Assembly: GCA_020631155.1 (NCBI GenBank) | Contig: JAHDHV010000001.1 | Location: 1 to 64,000, forward strand | Direction: 5' to 3' | DNA: 64,000 nt | Origin: Bacteroidota bacterium | GTDB lineage: Bacteria > Bacteroidota > Bacteroidia > Chitinophagales > UBA2359 | Shown here: in pieces, positions 3,644-16,457 of the stretch | How the letters are laid out: each line of letters begins with the position of its first letter | Position numbering within the stretch: position 1 is the stretch's first letter | The notes under the pieces: model-generated | What the model was told of the DNA's origin: nothing | Database searches by the model: none | Seen by the model: only the letters and a program-made list of their open reading frames with translations | Made by a program: the position numbers and the translations under genes

Positions 3644-4042
3644 GATTTTTTAAATTTTAATTGTAATAAAAATAATTTTGCTGTTAAAAGTGTAAGGACT
3701 TTGTTAGTATGATAACTTTTGTGTGATTTTGTATTTTTGTAGGAAAAAGAAAATCACGTAAAAATTTTCACTAGCAACCGCTATTTTGTATCATTACAAA
3801 ACAGACTTTAGCCAATGTCATACACTCTTTAGTGTATGAGTAGTAGAGTTTCGAGGAAGTATGATAAGTGCTTTAAAATTAAAGATTTATGAATTTTAGT
3901 CTGAGTGTTGTAGTTTGTTGATTATCAGGTTTTTAGTAAAAGGTTTTGTAAGTACTACACAATAATTAAACGGGACTCTTTGTTTGATTAAAGCAATGAA
4001 AGTTAATACTTTAATTAATGGAAACCTGAAAAGGTGACAGGA
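3644..4042. other. Intergenic, 399 bp, no gene seen
   Basis: No credible frame. It holds a short hairpin (CATACAC...GTGTATG, around 3820-3839) without a T-run. The part at about 3948-4020 resembles the AAGTACC element family (AAGTACTACACAATAATTAAAC ... TTAATACTTTAATTAA in outline), probably a decayed copy. Confidence 0.4.
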
Positions 4043-4906
4043 CTAAAATTTCACTAATTTTTTAGTTTGTGTATACCCATCTACATTCAGCTGATAATAA
4101 TAAGCACCAGAGGGAAGGGGTGGAGCGTTCCAAATTTGCTGTTGTTTACCAGCCGCTTGTTTTTGATGGTCAAGTAGTTGTGCAACAGTTCTGCCTTGCA
4201 GGTCAAAAACCTGTAGCGAAACAGTTGCCTCTTTAGTTAAAGTATATTCAATAGTAGTTTGTGAGCCAAAAGGATTGGGTTTTGTGGATAATGTTATATC
4301 TTTAGGAGAATAAGCCATTGAAGTAGTTTTGCCAATAATACTAATATTAGATAAACAGTTTGGGCTATTGGGATTACAAGGAAGCGGTTCATTAAGATCA
4401 AACAGTTGGATATCTACTACAGAAGCATATATTCCTGTTGCCATGCAAGAAAGACAAGCAAACTGAAACATAGATGGATTTGAAGGAACATATACGCCAT
4501 CTATTAAGCTGTAAACAATAACAATAACAGTCGGAGAACAATTTTTAGGTATTAGTGCTTGGCAATAAGCGTGACTTGGATTAGCTATATTAGCATCTAC
4601 TGTTTGTCCCCAATTTAAAGATAAGGCTGCATGAGAAGCATCAGTGCTTAAGTTCGTCCACTGACTTTTGTAATTGATATCATTTGGCTTTTGACAAGCA
4701 GTTATGTATTGTATTAAATATTGGTCTGTTTTTTCTTGATGTGTTCGAGGAGTAGTCCAATCTAGTTGTAAAGTATTACCACAGCTTGAAAAACTATTAA
4801 AACTGATAGGAAGATTTGCTGCTTTCTGTGCCCAAAGCTGATTTTGTATGATAAGGCAAGAAGAAATATACAGTAGTAAGCTTAGAAAAAAGAATTTGTT
4901 TTTCAT
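4043..4906 (-). CDS. T9SS type A cargo protein, paralog 1 of a tandem set
   Basis: A predicted 287-aa secreted protein of unknown function. I choose the ATG at 4906 (MKNKFFFLSL) rather than the frame-extending ATG at 4978. The promoter-like box TATCTTTG (4942-4949, minus) lies inside the longer version, and the divergent paralog at 7265-8134 starts with its own signal peptide at the equivalent place. The order is signal peptide ending LWAQ, a Cys-containing domain of about 170 residues, and a type A sorting domain ending 'GYTQTKKLVKF'. Its body is identical to that of the next gene except for three residues close to the C-terminus (PP...A here, QH...V there). The protein probably ends up on the cell surface or in the medium. 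Confidence 0.8.
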   Translation of the reverse strand: MKNKFFFLSLLLYISSCLIIQNQLWAQKAANLPISFNSFSSCGNTLQLDWTTPRTHQEKTDQYLIQYITACQKPNDINYKSQWTNLSTDASHAALSLNWGQTVDANIANPSHAYCQALIPKNCSPTVIVIVYSLIDGVYVPSNPSMFQFACLSCMATGIYASVVDIQLFDLNEPLPCNPNSPNCLSNISIIGKTTSMAYSPKDITLSTKPNPFGSQTTIEYTLTKEATVSLQVFDLQGRTVAQLLDHQKQAAGKQQQIWNAPPLPSGAYYYQLNVDGYTQTKKLVKF

Positions 4907-4941
4907 TAGATAATTGTTGTTAGTTATGAGCTTCTTTACTA

Positions 4942-4949
4942 CAAAGATA
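4942..4949 (-). promoter_or_regulatory. Bacteroidota -7 box TATCTTTG for the gene ending at 4043
   Basis: TATCTTTG matches the TAnnTTTG -7 element. It lies 36 bases before the chosen ATG and is preserved at the same place in all three paralogs although the flanking sequence of the third has diverged. No clear -33 TTTG is visible. Confidence 0.55.
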
Positions 4950-5089
4950 AATCGAAAAAATAATTTATGCGAGCACATTTTTTAGCAGGAATTAAAGGGA
5001 ATTTGATGTGCTATTATTTATATGTAGTTGATTAGTAGTTGTTTGTGTGCTGTTGGAATGTGTGGGCGTTAATTAGGGTAGGTGTTTTT

Positions 5090-5400
5090 ATGAAAAAAAT
5101 AAATCATTTATCTTACTTGAACACTTAAATATTAAACAATTATAGCCTTCTTTTTTTACGTAGAAAAGAATTTGAAAGTGTATAAGTTAATTTGTAAATT
5201 ATTTGCTTGTTAATGGATAGAAGGGAGCGTTTAGTAATGTTAAAAAAAGAAGATGTGTCTGCTTAGATTTACTTAAAAGAGCCATTTAAGATAGTAAAAA
5301 CTAATTAATTGATAATTTTTTAGTAATAAAATATTTTAATTTGATTGTTTTTTAATGTGTAGTGGATGGTAATGTGATCTTGTTATTGTACAATAACTTA
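5090..5400 (+). pseudogene. Decayed 5' part of a paralog of the 481-codon gene at 8320
   Basis: Starting with 'gtgttttta' plus ATG, this stretch aligns by eye with the start of the intact gene at 8320: ATGAAAAA, AAACTTACTTGAA-like, TTTTTTTA-GTAGAAAAGAA, GGATAGAAGGGAGCGTTTAGTA, TTAAAAAAAGAAGA and a TTAATTGATAATTTTTTA-like segment appear in the same order. The frame is broken at once (stop after about a dozen codons) and by several indels. The similarity fades near 5400, so only the first ~100 codons remain. It sits head to head with the T9SS cargo gene, exactly as the intact gene does with the third cargo gene. Confidence 0.6.
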
Positions 5401-5554
5401 AATTAAAAGTGGAAAGTTAACAATTTGGAGATTATTTTTTTTTGCTCAGTAGAACACAAGTTTTTGCTTTTTTAGGTGCTTAAGTACTAATACTAAAGTA
5501 GCTAAAGTTATATTATAGAAATCATGCAAAAAAAGGAATTACAGAAATAACAAA

Positions 5555-5597
5555 ACTAAAAAAAGCCCTGTTCTGTATAAATACAAAACAAGGCTTG
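5555..5597 (-). terminator. Minus-strand intrinsic terminator-like hairpin in the duplicated spacer
   Basis: AAGCCctGTTcTGTA (from 5563) pairs with TACAaAACAaGGCTT (ending 5596). On the minus strand the stem is followed by a run of seven Ts. It lies about 57 bases past the minus-strand stop at 5654. Confidence 0.6.
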
Positions 5598-5653
5598 ATT
5601 TAATGTAATACGCTACACATTACATTAAGAGGAAACTTGAAAAGATGACAGGA

Positions 5654-6517
5654 CTAAAATTTCACTAATTTTTTGGTTTGGGTATACCCATCTACATTCA
5701 GCTGATAATAATAAACACCAGAGGGAAGGTGTTGAGCGTTCCAAATTTGCTGTTGTTTACCAGCCGCTTGTTTTTGATGGTCAAGTAGTTGTGCAACAGT
5801 TCTGCCTTGCAGGTCAAAAACCTGTAGCGAAACAGTTGCCTCTTTAGTTAAAGTATATTCAATAGTAGTTTGTGAGCCAAAAGGATTGGGTTTTGTGGAT
5901 AATGTTATATCTTTAGGAGAATAAGCCATTGAAGTAGTTTTGCCAATAATACTAATATTAGATAAACAGTTTGGGCTATTGGGATTACAAGGAAGCGGTT
6001 CATTAAGATCAAACAGTTGGATATCTACTACAGAAGCATATATTCCTGTTGCCATGCAAGAAAGACAAGCAAACTGAAACATAGATGGATTTGAAGGAAC
6101 ATATACGCCATCTATTAAGCTGTAAACAATAACAATAACAGTCGGAGAACAATTTTTAGGTATTAGTGCTTGGCAATAAGCGTGACTTGGATTAGCTATA
6201 TTAGCATCTACTGTTTGTCCCCAATTTAAAGATAAGGCTGCATGAGAAGCATCAGTGCTTAAGTTCGTCCACTGACTTTTGTAATTGATATCATTTGGCT
6301 TTTGACAAGCAGTTATGTATTGTATTAAATATTGGTCTGTTTTTTCTTGATGTGTTCGAGGAGTAGTCCAATCTAGTTGTAAAGTATTACCACAGCTTGA
6401 AAAACTATTAAAACTGATAGGAAGATTTGCTGCTTTCTGTGCCCAAAGCTGATTTTGTATGATAAGGCAAGAAGAAATATACAGTAGTAAGCTTAGAAAA
6501 AAGAATTTGTTTTTCAT
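5654..6517 (-). CDS. T9SS type A cargo protein, paralog 2 (chimeric tandem copy)
   Basis: A 287-aa near-copy of the gene at 4043-4906; start chosen for the same reasons. Signal peptide, central domain and most of the sorting domain are identical to copy 1. The last ~30 codons and the downstream ~30 bases instead match the third paralog at 7265 (QHLPSGVYYYQL; TTTTTGGTTTGGGTATACC). The gene therefore looks like a recombinant: N-terminal and central part from copy 1, 3' end from copy 3. Secretion through T9SS and surface or extracellular location are inferred from the sorting domain; the central domain is not one I recognise. Confidence 0.8.
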   Translation of the reverse strand: MKNKFFFLSLLLYISSCLIIQNQLWAQKAANLPISFNSFSSCGNTLQLDWTTPRTHQEKTDQYLIQYITACQKPNDINYKSQWTNLSTDASHAALSLNWGQTVDANIANPSHAYCQALIPKNCSPTVIVIVYSLIDGVYVPSNPSMFQFACLSCMATGIYASVVDIQLFDLNEPLPCNPNSPNCLSNISIIGKTTSMAYSPKDITLSTKPNPFGSQTTIEYTLTKEATVSLQVFDLQGRTVAQLLDHQKQAAGKQQQIWNAQHLPSGVYYYQLNVDGYTQTKKLVKF

Positions 6518-6552
6518 TAGATAATTGTTGTTAGTTATGAGCTTCTTTACTA

Positions 6553-6560
6553 CAAAGATA
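6553..6560 (-). promoter_or_regulatory. Bacteroidota -7 box TATCTTTG for the gene ending at 5654
   Basis: Exact tandem copy, 1611 bases on, of the box at 4942-4949, again 36 bases before the chosen ATG. Confidence 0.55.
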
Positions 6561-6700
6561 AATCGAAAAAATAATTTATGCGAGCACATTTTTTAGCAGG
6601 AATTAAAGGGAATTTGATGTGCTATTATTTATATGTAGTTGATTAGTAGTTGTTTGTGTGCTGTTGGAATGTGTGGGCGTTAATTAGGGTAGGTGTTTTT

Positions 6701-7011
6701 ATGAAAAAAATAAATCATTTATCTTACTTGAACACTTAAATATTAAACAATTATAGCCTTCTTTTTTTACGTAGAAAAGAATTTGAAAGTGTATAAGTTA
6801 ATTTGTAAATTATTTGCTTGTTAATGGATAGAAGGGAGCGTTTAGTAATGTTAAAAAAAGAAGATGTGTCTGCTTAGATTTACTTAAAAGAGCCATTTAA
6901 GATAGTAAAAACTAATTAATTGATAATTTTTTAGTAATAAAATATTTTAATTTGATTGTTTTTTAATGTGTAGTGGATGGTAATGTGATCTTGTTATTGT
7001 ACAATAACTTA
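6701..7011 (+). pseudogene. Second decayed 5' fragment of a paralog of the 481-codon gene
   Basis: Identical to the remnant at 5090-5400 and displaced by 1611 bases. It was carried along by the tandem duplication after it had already decayed, because both copies share the same stops and indels. Confidence 0.6.
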
Positions 7012-7165
7012 AATTAAAAGTGGAAAGTTAACAATTTGGAGATTATTTTTTTTTGCTCAGTAGAACACAAGTTTTTGCTTTTTTAGGTGCTTAAGTACTA
7101 ATACTAAAGTAGCTAAAGTTATATTATAGAAATCATGCAAAAAAAGGAATTACAGAAATAACAAA

Positions 7166-7208
7166 ACTAAAAAAAGCCCTGTTCTGTATAAATACAAAAC
7201 AAGGCTTG
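7166..7208 (-). terminator. Minus-strand intrinsic terminator-like hairpin after the third cargo gene
   Basis: Same stem as at 5555-5597, now 57 bases past the stop at 7265. Since this is the original position relative to the third paralog, the copy at 5555 was probably brought in with the duplicated unit. Confidence 0.6.
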
Positions 7209-7264
7209 ATTTAATGTAATACGCTACACATTACATTAAGAGGAAACTTGAAAAGATGACAGGA

Positions 7265-8134
7265 CTAAAATTTCACTAATTTTTTGGTTTGGGTATACCC
7301 ATCTACATTCAGCTGATAATAATAAACACCAGAGGGAAGGTGTTGAGCGTTCCAAATTTGCTGTTGTTTACCAGCCGCTTGCTTTTGATGGTCAATTAGT
7401 TGTGCAACAGTTCTGCCTTGTAGGTCAAAAACCTGTAGCGAAACAGTTGCCTCTTTGGTTAAAGAATACTCAAGAGTAGTTTGCGCGCTAAAAGGATTGG
7501 GTTTTGTAGATAATGCTATATCTTTAGGAGAATAAGCCGTTGAGGAGGTTTTGTTGCCACCCGTGACAGACGGGCCTCCGCATGCTTCGGGATTTAGTAA
7601 ACATGTAGGATCAATATTAATATCTAAAACCTCTATTACAAGTTCTGCTGGCTCACAAAGGGTATATAAACATGGAACTTCAGCTTTAACTGAATATAAG
7701 CCTATATTATCTGAAAGGGTAGTACGATAGATATTGAAAAAGATAATGGGCTTTTCACAAGACGCTGGTATTGTAAGTTGAGCGGAACCACAGGAGGATG
7801 TATTATCAGGATCACTTATCTCCCAAGTGGGTTCTAGTATGATGTCTGTTGTTTGGGTAGTTTCTATTTCAACCCAGTCACCAAGGTTAGTAATATTCCC
7901 AAAACTATCTTCACAAGCAGTTCGATAAGTAATTAAGTAATTTGTAAGCATGTACATTGATGAATTGTAGGGTATAAAACTCAATGATATGGAAGAACAC
8001 TCTTGGGTAAGTGAAATGTTATCAGCACTCATAAACTGAGCTTCAAAAGTTTCTTTTTGTGCATAAAGATGGTTGTGTATTAGGCAAAAAAGGAAGAAAA
8101 AGGGTAAATTCAAAAAAATAAATTGTTTTTTCAT
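7265..8134 (-). CDS. T9SS type A cargo protein, paralog 3
   Basis: A 289-aa secreted protein related to the two genes downstream but clearly older. Signal peptide MKKQFIFLNLPFFFLF...LYAQ. The central ~190 residues are only distantly similar to the other two but keep the spacing of several Cys and the 'YLITYRTAC'/'YLIQYITAC' block. The sorting domain after 'STAYSPKDIALSTKPNPF' is almost identical to theirs and ends in the same 11 residues. The conserved domain resembles a fibronectin- or Ig-like fold in hydrophobic pattern, which I cannot confirm. It is divergently arranged with the 481-codon gene at 8320. Confidence 0.8.
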   Translation of the reverse strand: MKKQFIFLNLPFFFLFCLIHNHLYAQKETFEAQFMSADNISLTQECSSISLSFIPYNSSMYMLTNYLITYRTACEDSFGNITNLGDWVEIETTQTTDIILEPTWEISDPDNTSSCGSAQLTIPASCEKPIIFFNIYRTTLSDNIGLYSVKAEVPCLYTLCEPAELVIEVLDINIDPTCLLNPEACGGPSVTGGNKTSSTAYSPKDIALSTKPNPFSAQTTLEYSLTKEATVSLQVFDLQGRTVAQLIDHQKQAAGKQQQIWNAQHLPSGVYYYQLNVDGYTQTKKLVKF

Positions 8135-8170
8135 GGAAAAGTTGTTTTTGGTTAGTAAATTTCTTTGTTA

Positions 8171-8178
8171 CAAAGATA
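8171..8178 (-). promoter_or_regulatory. Bacteroidota -7 box TATCTTTG for the gene ending at 7265
   Basis: TATCTTTG lies 37 bases before the ATG at 8134, the same distance as in the two duplicated paralogs. The conservation supports both the promoter and the start choices. Confidence 0.5.
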
Positions 8179-8319
8179 AGTTGTTTAAATAAACCATACA
8201 GGCACATTTTTTAGCAAGAATTAGGGGTGATTTTTGTTTGTTAATATTTATATGTAATTGATTGTGAGTTTTTTAACTCTTTTTGGATGTGCTAAGTATT
8301 AATTATAATAAGTGTTTTT

Positions 8320-9772: not shown

Positions 9773-11356
9773 TTATACTAAATACACCCCTAACAATCCA
9801 GCGACATATTTGCTTAAACTGTCCAATGGAATTTCTTTTTGAACGCGTGCGCGCCATTCGCGTTTATCAGTGATGGTTGCTGATAATTCTTTACCCAACT
9901 TTAGGTTTCGCACCGTTGCAATGCCTTTTTCCACCTCGTCGCCGCCAATCAAAATGGCAACAGGGCAGTTTTTTCGGTCTGCATAAGACAGTTGTTTTTT
10001 TAATCCTCTAAAACCTTTGTGGCAACCATAATAAATTTCTACATCTACTCCCTTTTCGCGCAATTTTCTTGCAATATTCTGGTAATCAAGCATTAAATTA
10101 TCGTCAAAATTGGCAATAAAAACGGGTCCGTCTGCTTTTTCTGGCACTTGTTTGGTGAGTATGAGCAATTCCGCTAGACGGTCTACACCGATGGATGCGC
10201 CAACGGCAGGAACGGACATGCCTAATAGTTGTTGTACTAAACCATCATAGCGACCACCGCCACAAATAGAACCAATTTGCTTTTTTTGCCCTCTTTTATT
10301 TCGGTAGGTTTGTAAGGATTCTACCTCAAAAATAGGACCTGTATAATAGGCCATGCCGCGCACTAAGGTTGGCTCAAAAATGACGTTTTCTTCGCCAAAA
10401 TTTAATTTGTCAAATATTTCGTCCATCTGCTGCAATTCGGCTAGTCCTTCTTGCGCTATGGCATTGTCTATTTTCGACAAACGGCTAATGATTTCTTTTC
10501 GACTTTGCCCACCTTCTGTAAATTGATTTAGAAAATCGTATATTCCTGTTACCAGTGTTTTATCCAAATTTAAGCCCACAATTTTTGCTCCTGATTTATC
10601 GGTTCGACCTGCGCCTAACTCTGCTTTTACGCCTTCCAAACCTATTTTATCGTATTTGTCCACAATTCGCAAAATGTCTTGCTCGGCTTCTGTTTTGTCA
10701 ATTCCTAAGGAAGCCAAAAAACCTTTTAAATATTTGCGATTATTTACTTTAATGCGGAAGGTGTCTTTTTTTAATCCAATTGCTTCTAAGGCATCCGATA
10801 AAATCATACAAGCTTCGGCATCTGAGGAAATGGCAGAGGTGCCGACCGAATCAAAGTCCAATTGCCAAAATTCGCGGAAGCGTCCCGGGGCTAATTTGAT
10901 TTCGTAGCGATAGACGGGACCGTACTGAAAACGGCGAAATAGGGGAGCTTTACCTACTTTAACTTGACCACGCAAATAGTCCATCCACAAACGTTCTGCA
11001 TATACACGCGCAAGCGGCGCAGTCAGATCGTAGCGTAAAGCAACAAAAGCATTTTCCATGATAACATCATTGCTTTCATCGCGCAGCGGCTCGCCATCTG
11101 TTGCGTAAACGGGCTCAATTTCAGGATTACTAAATGCATAAACCCCTTTATCCACTGTGTCATCATCAGGCATATATTTGCCCAAACAATCGGCATATTC
11201 CAAAATTGGTGTATCCCAATGCTCAAAACCGTAGCTTTTATAAACCGCACTTGCTCGCTCAATGATTTGAAGTTTCAACTGATTGAGACTGACATCAATA
11301 TCTCTAAAGCCTTTAATTTTTCTAGGAACTATTCCGCGCTGTTTGCTGACTATCAT
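9773..11356 (-). CDS. hisS: Histidyl-tRNA synthetase, alphaproteobacterial-like type
   Basis: Charges tRNA-His with histidine. A class II synthetase of 527 aa, about 100 longer than the E. coli enzyme. Visible landmarks: 'LRYDLTAPLAR' (~residues 105-115), motif 2 region 'GPVYRYE..LAPGRFREF' (~145-165), the histidine-specific 'LVRGMAYYTG' and 'GGGRYDGLV' blocks, and motif 3 'GASIGVDRL' (~380-390), followed by the anticodon-binding domain. The wording of these blocks (EYADCLGKYMPDDD, RYDLTAPLAR, PGRFREF.QLDFDSVG, LVRG.YYTGP) is what I remember from alphaproteobacterial enzymes, not from ordinary bacterial HisS. Those enzymes pair with a tRNA-His lacking G-1, and the tRNA gene 368 bases upstream on the same strand has that feature. 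The ATG at 11356 keeps the full N-terminus. Confidence 0.93.
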   Translation of the reverse strand: MIVSKQRGIVPRKIKGFRDIDVSLNQLKLQIIERASAVYKSYGFEHWDTPILEYADCLGKYMPDDDTVDKGVYAFSNPEIEPVYATDGEPLRDESNDVIMENAFVALRYDLTAPLARVYAERLWMDYLRGQVKVGKAPLFRRFQYGPVYRYEIKLAPGRFREFWQLDFDSVGTSAISSDAEACMILSDALEAIGLKKDTFRIKVNNRKYLKGFLASLGIDKTEAEQDILRIVDKYDKIGLEGVKAELGAGRTDKSGAKIVGLNLDKTLVTGIYDFLNQFTEGGQSRKEIISRLSKIDNAIAQEGLAELQQMDEIFDKLNFGEENVIFEPTLVRGMAYYTGPIFEVESLQTYRNKRGQKKQIGSICGGGRYDGLVQQLLGMSVPAVGASIGVDRLAELLILTKQVPEKADGPVFIANFDDNLMLDYQNIARKLREKGVDVEIYYGCHKGFRGLKKQLSYADRKNCPVAILIGGDEVEKGIATVRNLKLGKELSATITDKREWRARVQKEIPLDSLSKYVAGLLGVYLV

Positions 11357-11425
11357 GATTTACGCATTTTTGGAGTTTGGAAGGTTGTAAGGTTACAAAG
11401 TTTTAAGGTTTTTGTTTTTTCAACT

Positions 11426-11514
11426 AAGTAAGTAGACAAAATTAAACAACTATTGAATTTGCCATAAAACATTGATAATGATTGAGTTGTCTCACGTCTT
11501 AAGTCTAAGTACTT
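11426..11514. repeat. AAGTA...TACTT short element (AAGTACC family), copy upstream of hisS
   Basis: Starts AAGTAAGTAGACAAAATTAAAC and ends AAGTCTAAGTACTT, an imperfect inverted repeat at the tips (AAGTA..TAGACA / TGTCTA..TACTT type). Related copies lie at 15401-15496 and 52595-52690. About 90 bp, non-coding, in the hisS leader region. Confidence 0.5.
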
Positions 11515-11599
11515 AATGAGCTAAAAGCAAACTACTACTATGTAGTTCGAGTGAATTTAGTCCAAACTCTAGTATATTTAAAATAAGTTGATAATTTTT

Positions 11600-11685
11600 A
11601 TGAGATTAGACATAAGATACAAGATTTAAGACATAAGATAACTGGTTAATAATTTCTAACATCTGATCTCTAACCTCTAAATAAA
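11600..11685. repeat. Low-complexity 'agacataagata' tract
   Basis: Loose tandem repeats of the type GA(C/T)ATAAGATA, then 'atttctaacatctgatctctaacctctaa'. Similar tracts recur at 41390, 48985, 52337 and 60380. Confidence 0.45.
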
Positions 11686-11723
11686 AAAAGCATTATCCAA
11701 CAATTTGTGAATAATGCTTACTG

Positions 11724-11797
11724 TCCTGCCGAATGGATTCGAACCATTGACCTCCTGAACCACAATCAGGCGTTCTAACCAACTGAACTACGGCAGG
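11724..11797 (-). tRNA. tRNA-His (anticodon GTG), no encoded G-1, A73
   Basis: A complete cloverleaf of 74 bases on the minus strand: acceptor CCTGCCG/CGGCAGG, U8 A9, D-stem GTTC/GAAC, anticodon stem CCTGA/TCAGG with loop TTGTGGT (anticodon GTG), five-base variable loop, T-stem AATGG/CCATT with TTCGAAT loop. CCA is not encoded. The base before C1 is T, not the G expected at -1 for tRNA-His, and the discriminator is A73, not C73. Normal bacterial tRNA-His has G-1:C73. Absence of G-1 with A73 is the situation described for a clade of alphaproteobacteria, and hisS next door has the matching look. Confidence 0.93.
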
Positions 11798-11831
11798 ATA
11801 TAATATGATGATATTTTTGTTTCATGGGGTG

Positions 11832-11839
11832 CAAAGATA
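11832..11839 (-). promoter_or_regulatory. Promoter -7 box TATCTTTG for tRNA-His
   Basis: TATCTTTG on the minus strand, 34 bases before the tRNA 5' end, fits TAnnTTTG. The upstream A/T-rich stretch has TTTG-like sequence but no well-spaced -33 box. Confidence 0.5.
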
Positions 11840-15617: not shown

Positions 15618-16457
15618 ATGAAAAATAAACTGTATTGGCTCATTGTGCTTGGTTTTATTGTGGTATATGGTGCTTGCAGCATTGATAGTTCTCCGCAACA
15701 GTTTTTAAATGTGGCAAAACCTGAGCCCCTATCTATTACAGATAGTCAGTTTCAACAAATTTATGATACTTACAATGTAGAGGGAGCATTTTTATTATAT
15801 GATTTTCAAAATGATCAATACATTAGTTACAATGAGGAGCGCGTAGATGCTACCTTTTTACCTGCTTCTACTTTCAAAATAATCAATTCATTAATTGCTT
15901 TAGAAACGGGTATCTTAAAGGATGAGAATGAGGTGATTAGCTGGGATGGAATTATGCGAAAATATACGCGATGGAATCAAGATCAAACTTTGCGCTCTGC
16001 TATGAAATATTCTACCGTTTGGTTTTATCAAGCCCTTGCGCGCCGCATCGGACCCGATAGAATGAGTTATTGGGTTGATACAGTTGGTTATGGAAATACG
16101 GATATTAGCGGTAAAATTGACCAATTTTGGTTGACAGGCTCTCTCCGCATTACAGCACGTCAACAGATAGCATTTTTGAAGCAATTGTATAAAAATGAAC
16201 TGCCTTTTTCGAGGCGAAATATGAAAATTGTTCGCTCCATATTAATCCGTCAACAAACAGAGGAATATATTTTACGAGGTAAAACAGGACTAGTTGTTAA
16301 TAGCGAGCCCAATATAGGATGGTATGTTGGGTATTTGGAAACTAATAATAATGTTTACTTTTTTGCGAATAATATTGATATTCACAATTCAAAAGATAGG
16401 TCTGCGCGTGAAAATATCACACTAAAGGTATTTAGGGAGTTAGGATTGATAGAATAG
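15618..16457 (+). CDS. Class D (OXA-type) beta-lactamase, predicted lipoprotein
   Basis: Predicted to hydrolyse beta-lactam antibiotics through an acylated serine. All class D motifs are present: S-T-F-K with the active-site Ser and carboxylatable Lys in 'PASTFK' (~residue 83), S-T-V in 'KYSTVWF' (~residue 133), Y-G-N in 'GYGNTDIS', the Trp of 'DQFWLTGSLRI' and K-T-G in 'LRGKTGLV'. 279 aa is the usual length. The leader ends at YGAC with Cys20, suggesting membrane anchoring in the periplasm. The last codons overlap the 9-bp target duplication of the element inserted at 16461, so the end of the reading frame was preserved. A sensor-type BlaR domain is not excluded in general, but this protein is stand-alone and has no membrane helices beyond the leader. 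Confidence 0.9.
   Translation: MKNKLYWLIVLGFIVVYGACSIDSSPQQFLNVAKPEPLSITDSQFQQIYDTYNVEGAFLLYDFQNDQYISYNEERVDATFLPASTFKIINSLIALETGILKDENEVISWDGIMRKYTRWNQDQTLRSAMKYSTVWFYQALARRIGPDRMSYWVDTVGYGNTDISGKIDQFWLTGSLRITARQQIAFLKQLYKNELPFSRRNMKIVRSILIRQQTEEYILRGKTGLVVNSEPNIGWYVGYLETNNNVYFFANNIDIHNSKDRSARENITLKVFRELGLIE

Follow-up and report, generated by a model that had tools for sequence, protein, structure and literature searches.

In the standard histidine identity system of bacteria, tRNA-His carries an encoded G at position -1 opposite the discriminator C73, and according to PMC3937112 this G-1:C73 pair is contacted by a Gln in motif 2 of histidyl-tRNA synthetase (HisRS), in place of which the alphaproteobacterial enzymes have a Gly. 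The closest described departure from this system is the pair of HisRS and G-1-less tRNA-His in alphaproteobacteria such as Caulobacter, Sinorhizobium and the Rhodobacterales (work of Ardell and Andersson in 2006, Wang et al. in 2007 and Yuan et al. in 2011, as reported in PMC9976931, PMC3937112, PMC4284800 and PMC7590224). Its experimentally defined tRNA-His signal consists of G1:U72 and A73 (PMC9976931, PMC7590224), and the lack of G-1 has been regarded as confined to one alphaproteobacterial group (PMC3937112, PMC4284800, PMC9976931, PMC5370408, PMC7590224). The HisRS of Trypanosoma brucei and of Acanthamoeba is likewise independent of G-1, and this eukaryotic case is described as being without sequence similarity to the bacterial one (PMC4284800).

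The window analysed here, i.e., the whole stretch of 64,000 nucleotides, harbours a tRNA-His gene and a hisS gene (Table 1) which share with the alphaproteobacterial pair the lack of an encoded G-1, A73, a HisRS of one deep clade with an internal insert and a C-terminal extension, the loss of the motif-2 Gln, and the absence of a detectable Thg1. However, the window has C1:G72 instead of G1:U72 and Ala instead of Gly at the motif-2 position, its tRNA-His gene lies upstream of hisS where alphaproteobacteria have a hisS-hisZ-hisG cluster, and the hosts belong to other phyla. When compared with the window HisRS, the trypanosome enzyme scores below those of human and Nostoc, and human HisRS falls outside the clade of the window enzyme (88-row tree, see below). 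No report of a G-1-less tRNA-His in Bacteroidota or other phyla was found in a search of mostly open-access literature. Relative to the literature searched, a G-1-less pair outside the alphaproteobacteria and the linkage of synthetase and tRNA gene are new, as is the apparent loss of G1:U72 together with a motif-2 Asp in the window's lineage.

We propose that the two genes constitute a matched, G-1-independent histidine identity module which would have been transferred jointly and would later have shifted at the 1:72 pair, and we assign a probability of roughly 80% to this reading. RNase P would cut the precursor at C1 to leave a normal acceptor stem of 7 bp, and the divergent HisRS would recognise the GUG anticodon and A73 and thereby charge the tRNA in the absence of G-1:C73. 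The pair in the window is not a chance occurrence, as dozens of loci combine this tRNA end with this type of HisRS.

The tRNA-His and hisS genes

Table 1. Features of the tRNA-His/hisS locus in the window
Feature	Position	Strand	Remarks
hisS, divergent histidyl-tRNA synthetase, related to the alphaproteobacterial A73 type	9773..11356	minus	527 aa
Motif 2 hairpin of HisRS (residues 140-171), class II element probing the acceptor end	10844..10939	minus	
Ala156 codon, tip of the motif-2 loop	10889..10891	minus	Alignment of HisRS types
Intrinsic terminator between tRNA-His and hisS	11688..11719	minus	12-bp stem and T run
tRNA-His(GUG)	11724..11797	minus	ARAGORN and Rfam calls; C1 = 11797, A73 = 11724
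Position -1 of tRNA-His	11798..11798	minus	T in the orientation of the tRNA, where standard bacterial tRNA-His has G

The only tRNA gene that ARAGORN and Rfam detect in the window is the tRNA-His(GTG) gene, called concordantly by both programs and with an Rfam score of 71.8 bits (gathering score 29). Read from the sequence, its acceptor stem is CCTGCCG/CGGCAGG, i.e., C1:G72 followed by A73; T8 and A9 are present, and CCA is not encoded, A73 being followed by 'CA'. An initial annotation had described a cleanly folding tRNA-His with C1:G72, U8, A9, A73 and a T at position -1, all of which the two programs and the sequence reading bear out, and its interval of 9773-11797 does cover both genes. 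It was also right in placing hisS downstream on the same strand, but the gap is 366 bp and not 368 bp. The -7 promoter consensus of Bacteroidota is TAnnTTTG. The sequence TATCTTTG, located 5' of tRNA-His (11832..11839, minus strand), matches this consensus and is probably the promoter of the gene. Hairpins like the terminator of the window, AAGCATTAT..ATAATGCTT, are found in the same spot of many Saprospirales loci carrying such a pair.

The HisRS of the window passes the curated cut-off of NCBIfam TIGR00442 (323.8 versus 286.75 bits) and has the class II motifs and catalytic-domain signatures, namely the motif 2 Arg/Glu, RGMAYYTG, GGGRYDGL and GASIGVDR. Its predicted fold looks ordinary, with HisRS as the best fold matches, and the tip of the motif-2 loop is modelled at low confidence. 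The enzyme is 38% identical to that of Paracoccus, which it matches at the profile level over its full length, internal insert and C-terminal extension included, in contrast to about 30-34% identity to the standard Bacteroidota enzyme. The standard Bacteroidota pair has the same function and is found in most relatives, even in the genus of one genome carrying the divergent pair, but has the motif-2 Gln and a G-1:C73 tRNA encoded apart from hisS. At the site of Ala156, standard enzymes have Gln, alphaproteobacterial ones Gly, and the G1:U72-associated members of the pair clade and of families f40 and f47 Asp (see below). In the window the standard Gln is gone, with Ala156 rather than Gly as the substitute, so that the pair has neither an encoded G-1 opposite C73 nor the motif-2 Gln of the standard bacterial system.

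The genome from which the window derives (G000) is a metagenome-assembled genome (MAG) with a completeness of 91.6%, as most of the genomes compared are MAGs. It was found to contain one hisS gene and, by two sequence patterns of different stringency, one tRNA-His(GTG)-like sequence, tRNA-His being counted in whole genomes by such patterns. Of the three genes that the initial annotation had suggested looking for, i.e., a second hisS, a second tRNA-His, in particular one with G-1:C73, and a Thg1-like enzyme (PF04446), none was found in this 91.6% complete genome, the positive control for Thg1 having worked; because of the incompleteness, a second tRNA-His or hisS may sit on missing contigs. A eukaryote-like mechanism, in which a Thg1-like enzyme adds G-1 opposite A73 after transcription, would fit A73 being the eukaryotic state (PMC9976931), but given the negative search and the loss of the standard motif-2 Gln from the HisRS we consider it scarcely credible. 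Contamination of the MAG was considered and dropped, as the 67-kb contig of the window carries type IX secretion and TonB genes and the near-complete genomes G767 and G752 have the same pair.

Phylogeny and distribution of the divergent HisRS

HisRS trees were built from 88 rows and, with the columns of the motif-2 loop removed, from 70 rows. The window enzyme falls into a clade of similar enzymes (the pair clade) with a support of 99 in the former and 100/99 in the latter tree, and the 70-row tree places this clade as sister to the alphaproteobacterial A73 enzymes (98/94) and the standard Bacteroidota HisRS on the opposite side of a 100/100 branch. The tree proposed in the initial annotation thus does not group the window enzyme with standard Bacteroidota HisS in either version. 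The resemblance to alphaproteobacterial enzymes noted there holds as kinship but not as membership within that type, and likewise its tRNA-His 'of alphaproteobacterial type' is so with respect to the missing G-1 and A73 but not to the first base pair, which is C1:G72 and not G1:U72. Families f40 and f47 of the same phylum branch near the pair clade. By revealing a sister group among bacteria, these trees also bear on the disputed origin of the alphaproteobacterial HisRS.

The pair clade comprises enzymes from Bacteroidota, Ignavibacteriota/Chlorobiota, Acidobacteriota/Aminicenantes and one genome labelled Myxococcota. A search of GTDB species returned 59 loci of divergent HisRS, hosted by Saprospiraceae-like, Bacteroidales, Ignavibacteria, Kapabacteria, Aminicenantes and Acidobacteria genomes and by one 'Deltaproteobacteria' MAG, which the taxonomy places in Myxococcota. 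Within this range the distribution is patchy: divergent HisRS was found in four of 20 genomes of the family-level search, the other three being 59-72% identical to the window enzyme and nearly all remaining genomes having standard HisRS, and in 9 of 398 genomes sampled across the order. Among phage sequences the search yielded 18 records, all weak and below 60% identity (best E 5e-34), and hence no close relative; among plasmids (PLSDB) it yielded alphaproteobacterial megaplasmids and chromids.

As an alternative to joint acquisition, the initial annotation had named independent co-divergence, by which the standard hisS and tRNA-His of Bacteroidota would have been altered without any transfer and have come to resemble the alphaproteobacterial pair by convergence. 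Convergence has indeed been suggested for the alphaproteobacterial case (PMC5370408), and the tRNA body of the window is barely nearer to foreign pair tRNAs than to the standard ones of its family. However, the tree contradicts such a scenario by joining the window HisRS with the alphaproteobacterial enzymes outside the standard Bacteroidota clade, the internal insert and the C-terminal extension are common to both, and both states occur within one genus (see below). We therefore regard co-divergence as very unlikely. Joint acquisition is favoured over it by the linkage of the genes in many phyla, by the mixed genus and by tRNA bodies that are somewhat nearer to foreign pair tRNAs than to the standard ones of the family.

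Linkage and probable joint transfer of the pair

In the order, the end of tRNA-His matches the type of HisRS without exception: the divergent enzyme is accompanied by a tRNA-His without G-1 and with A73 in 9/9 genomes, and the standard enzyme by a G-1:C73 tRNA-His in all 12 genomes examined (p = 3e-6, Fisher's exact test, uncorrected for relatedness). The two states can occur side by side in closely related genomes, as genus g13 contains both the divergent pair (G017) and the standard one (G012, G019), and family f55 includes a genome with a standard tRNA and a distant HisRS (G254) amongst relatives with the divergent pair.

Moreover, 41 of 58 divergent hisS loci have a tRNA-His without G-1 directly upstream on the same strand at a distance of at most 166 nt, and of those without it four had less than 210 bases of upstream sequence in view. 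No tRNA-His was found beside standard hisS in 26 loci retrieved together with flanks of at most 1.5 kb, nor beside alphaproteobacterial hisS in the loci retrieved, where in the annotated ones hisS is followed by the gene for the ATP phosphoribosyltransferase regulatory subunit (hisZ), mostly together with hisG. In addition, nine pair loci, whose hosts are labelled Bacteroidota, Ignavibacteria and Acidobacteria, encode one subfamily of PF00221 aromatic amino acid lyases downstream of hisS. These lyases are 47-74% identical to each other (47-64% across phyla) but only 30-34% to a lyase beside a standard hisS of the same family. The hisS of the window has no adjoining lyase gene. Both the linkage of tRNA-His and hisS and the lyase subfamily shared across phyla favour a transfer as a block, and the patchy distribution together with the linkage suggests that the module displaced the standard hisS and G-1:C73 tRNA-His by joint horizontal transfer of both genes. 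A replacement at the site of the old hisS was considered and dropped, as the neighbourhoods of standard and pair hisS are generally unlike, the aromatic lyases excepted. In this regard, PF00221 lyases of two different subfamilies lie next to hisS of both types (L207:2040-4022, L208:14213-15835, L205:9219-10718); their best fit is to models of histidine ammonia-lyase, although the copies of the pair type fall short of the hutH cut-off.

For the alphaproteobacteria, Ardell and Andersson (2006) reportedly proposed a transfer of the synthetase followed by adaptation of the resident tRNA-His. A transfer of the synthetase alone would also here agree with the weak signal of the window's tRNA body (78.0% for foreign pair tRNAs versus 76.3% for the standard tRNA-His of the family). 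However, the tRNA-His genes directly upstream of hisS in several phyla, never seen beside standard hisS, would imply that this adjacency was either created or moved together with hisS, and in G004/G013 and G017 the tRNA body resembles foreign pair tRNAs more than the standard tRNA-His of the family, by 6-7 points. Transfer of the synthetase alone is therefore improbable when compared with transfer of the whole module. The presence of related pairs in several phyla, mostly with adjoining genes, and their substitution for the standard pair even inside a single genus suggest a direct answer to how a tRNA identity rule may change, namely by both of its halves moving together.

A proposed second shift at the first base pair

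G1:U72 is found in most members of the pair clade outside the window's lineage, in the f40/f47 genomes and in the alphaproteobacteria. Members of the window's lineage have C1:G72 instead, apart from two with U1:A72. After the transfer, G1:U72 would have been replaced in this lineage, and the motif-2 Asp that accompanies it would have been lost, by which changes the identity set of the window would differ from the characterised alphaproteobacterial one. According to our reading of the alignment, the motif-2 column at Ala156 corresponds to the published position 123. In this column, Asp is present in 25/25 enzymes of the pair clade and the f40/f47 clades that go with G1:U72, while those that go with C1:G72 or U1:A72 show Ala, Thr, Leu, Met, Gly, Ser, Val, Gln or Glu. 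Overall, Asp and G1:U72 agree in 50 of 52 rows. Exceptions to the link are L096 (Asp with G1:C72) and the alphaproteobacteria (Gly with G1:U72). When the tRNA ends of seven genomes were predicted in writing from the HisRS before being viewed, six proved right and L096 was the one missed; two closely related enzymes with KLTPGR have a tRNA-His with G1:C72, as predicted, and represent an independent loss of G1:U72. On the tree, each of the two traits changes four times but in just two to three independent pairs, so that a sign test cannot reach 0.05 and the link remains short of significance.

The large number of different residues replacing Asp suggests that the contact of motif 2 was given up rather than exchanged in these lineages. 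We lean slightly towards the view that histidine identity in the window's lineage depends on a set of elements that has not been described before, lacking both G-1:C73 and G1:U72, which would have arisen by this second shift within a self-contained tRNA-synthetase module crossing phyla. Recognition of the tRNA would rely on the anticodon and on A73, the latter possibly paired with U-1, whereas motif 2 would no longer contact the first pair. Two bases of the acceptor end C1:G72 with A73, namely A73 and G72, have been published as proline elements in bacteria.

The discriminator of the G-1-less tRNA-His in the pair clade is A, G or U but never C (variants in L079, L108, L110, L081, L086, L093, L098 and L177), and varies mostly where G1:U72 is kept; lineages without G1:U72 have A, with the exception of L086. 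With the natural series of G1:U72, C1:G72, U1:A72 and G1:C72 pairs, in which position 73 is A, G or U, it should become possible to test how the motif-2 loop reads the tRNA, and engineering of the genetic code gains further candidates for orthogonal pairs.

Two further members of this group deserve mention. The genome of L096 has a tRNA-His (L182) with G at -1, G1:C72 and A73, i.e., a eukaryote-like end, and its HisRS is basal in the pair clade. On the Ignavibacteria branch, the HisRS of L105 has Gln at the motif-2 position, from which a tRNA-His without G1:U72 would be predicted; a tRNA-His was not found for L105.

Position -1

RNase P might also leave U-1 in place, such that a U-1:A73 pair stands in for G-1:C73 as the histidine identity element. 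In the predicted fold of the window tRNA-His, U-1 does pair with A73. T-1 is present in 42 of 47 distinct G-1-less tRNA-His with A73 or G73, as opposed to 12 of 30 other tRNAs nearby (p = 7e-6, Fisher's exact test, uncorrected for relatedness), and a -1:73 pair is possible in 45 of 50 G-1-less tRNA-His, both U73 lineages having a purine at -1. However, this pair is broken in at least five lineages (L095, L099, L166, L167, L182) and also in L178/L179, RNase P sites show a general preference for U-1, and T-1 is found in alphaproteobacterial tRNA-His genes as well. As to the latter, Wang et al. are said to have shown in 2007 that tRNA-His of two alphaproteobacterial species is without any extra nucleotide, which counts against a role of U-1. 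As T-1 is commoner than in the neighbouring tRNAs although several lineages break the pair, we keep U-1:A73 as a rival to a mature tRNA starting at C1, albeit as one of low probability.

Other features of the window and its genome

Elsewhere in the same genome, a short stretch (L170, contig C387) contains six or more tRNA genes in a row, some of which look odd and which may be phage-borne. In the window, a protein with a penicillin-binding transpeptidase domain and a weaker beta-lactamase match is encoded at 15618-16457 and may be class D beta-lactamase-like. At 4020-8233, a gene whose product is secreted and ends in a C-terminal domain of the type IX secretion kind is present in three tandem copies, these being spaced by 1611 nt and showing 98% and 93% identity over 300 nt.
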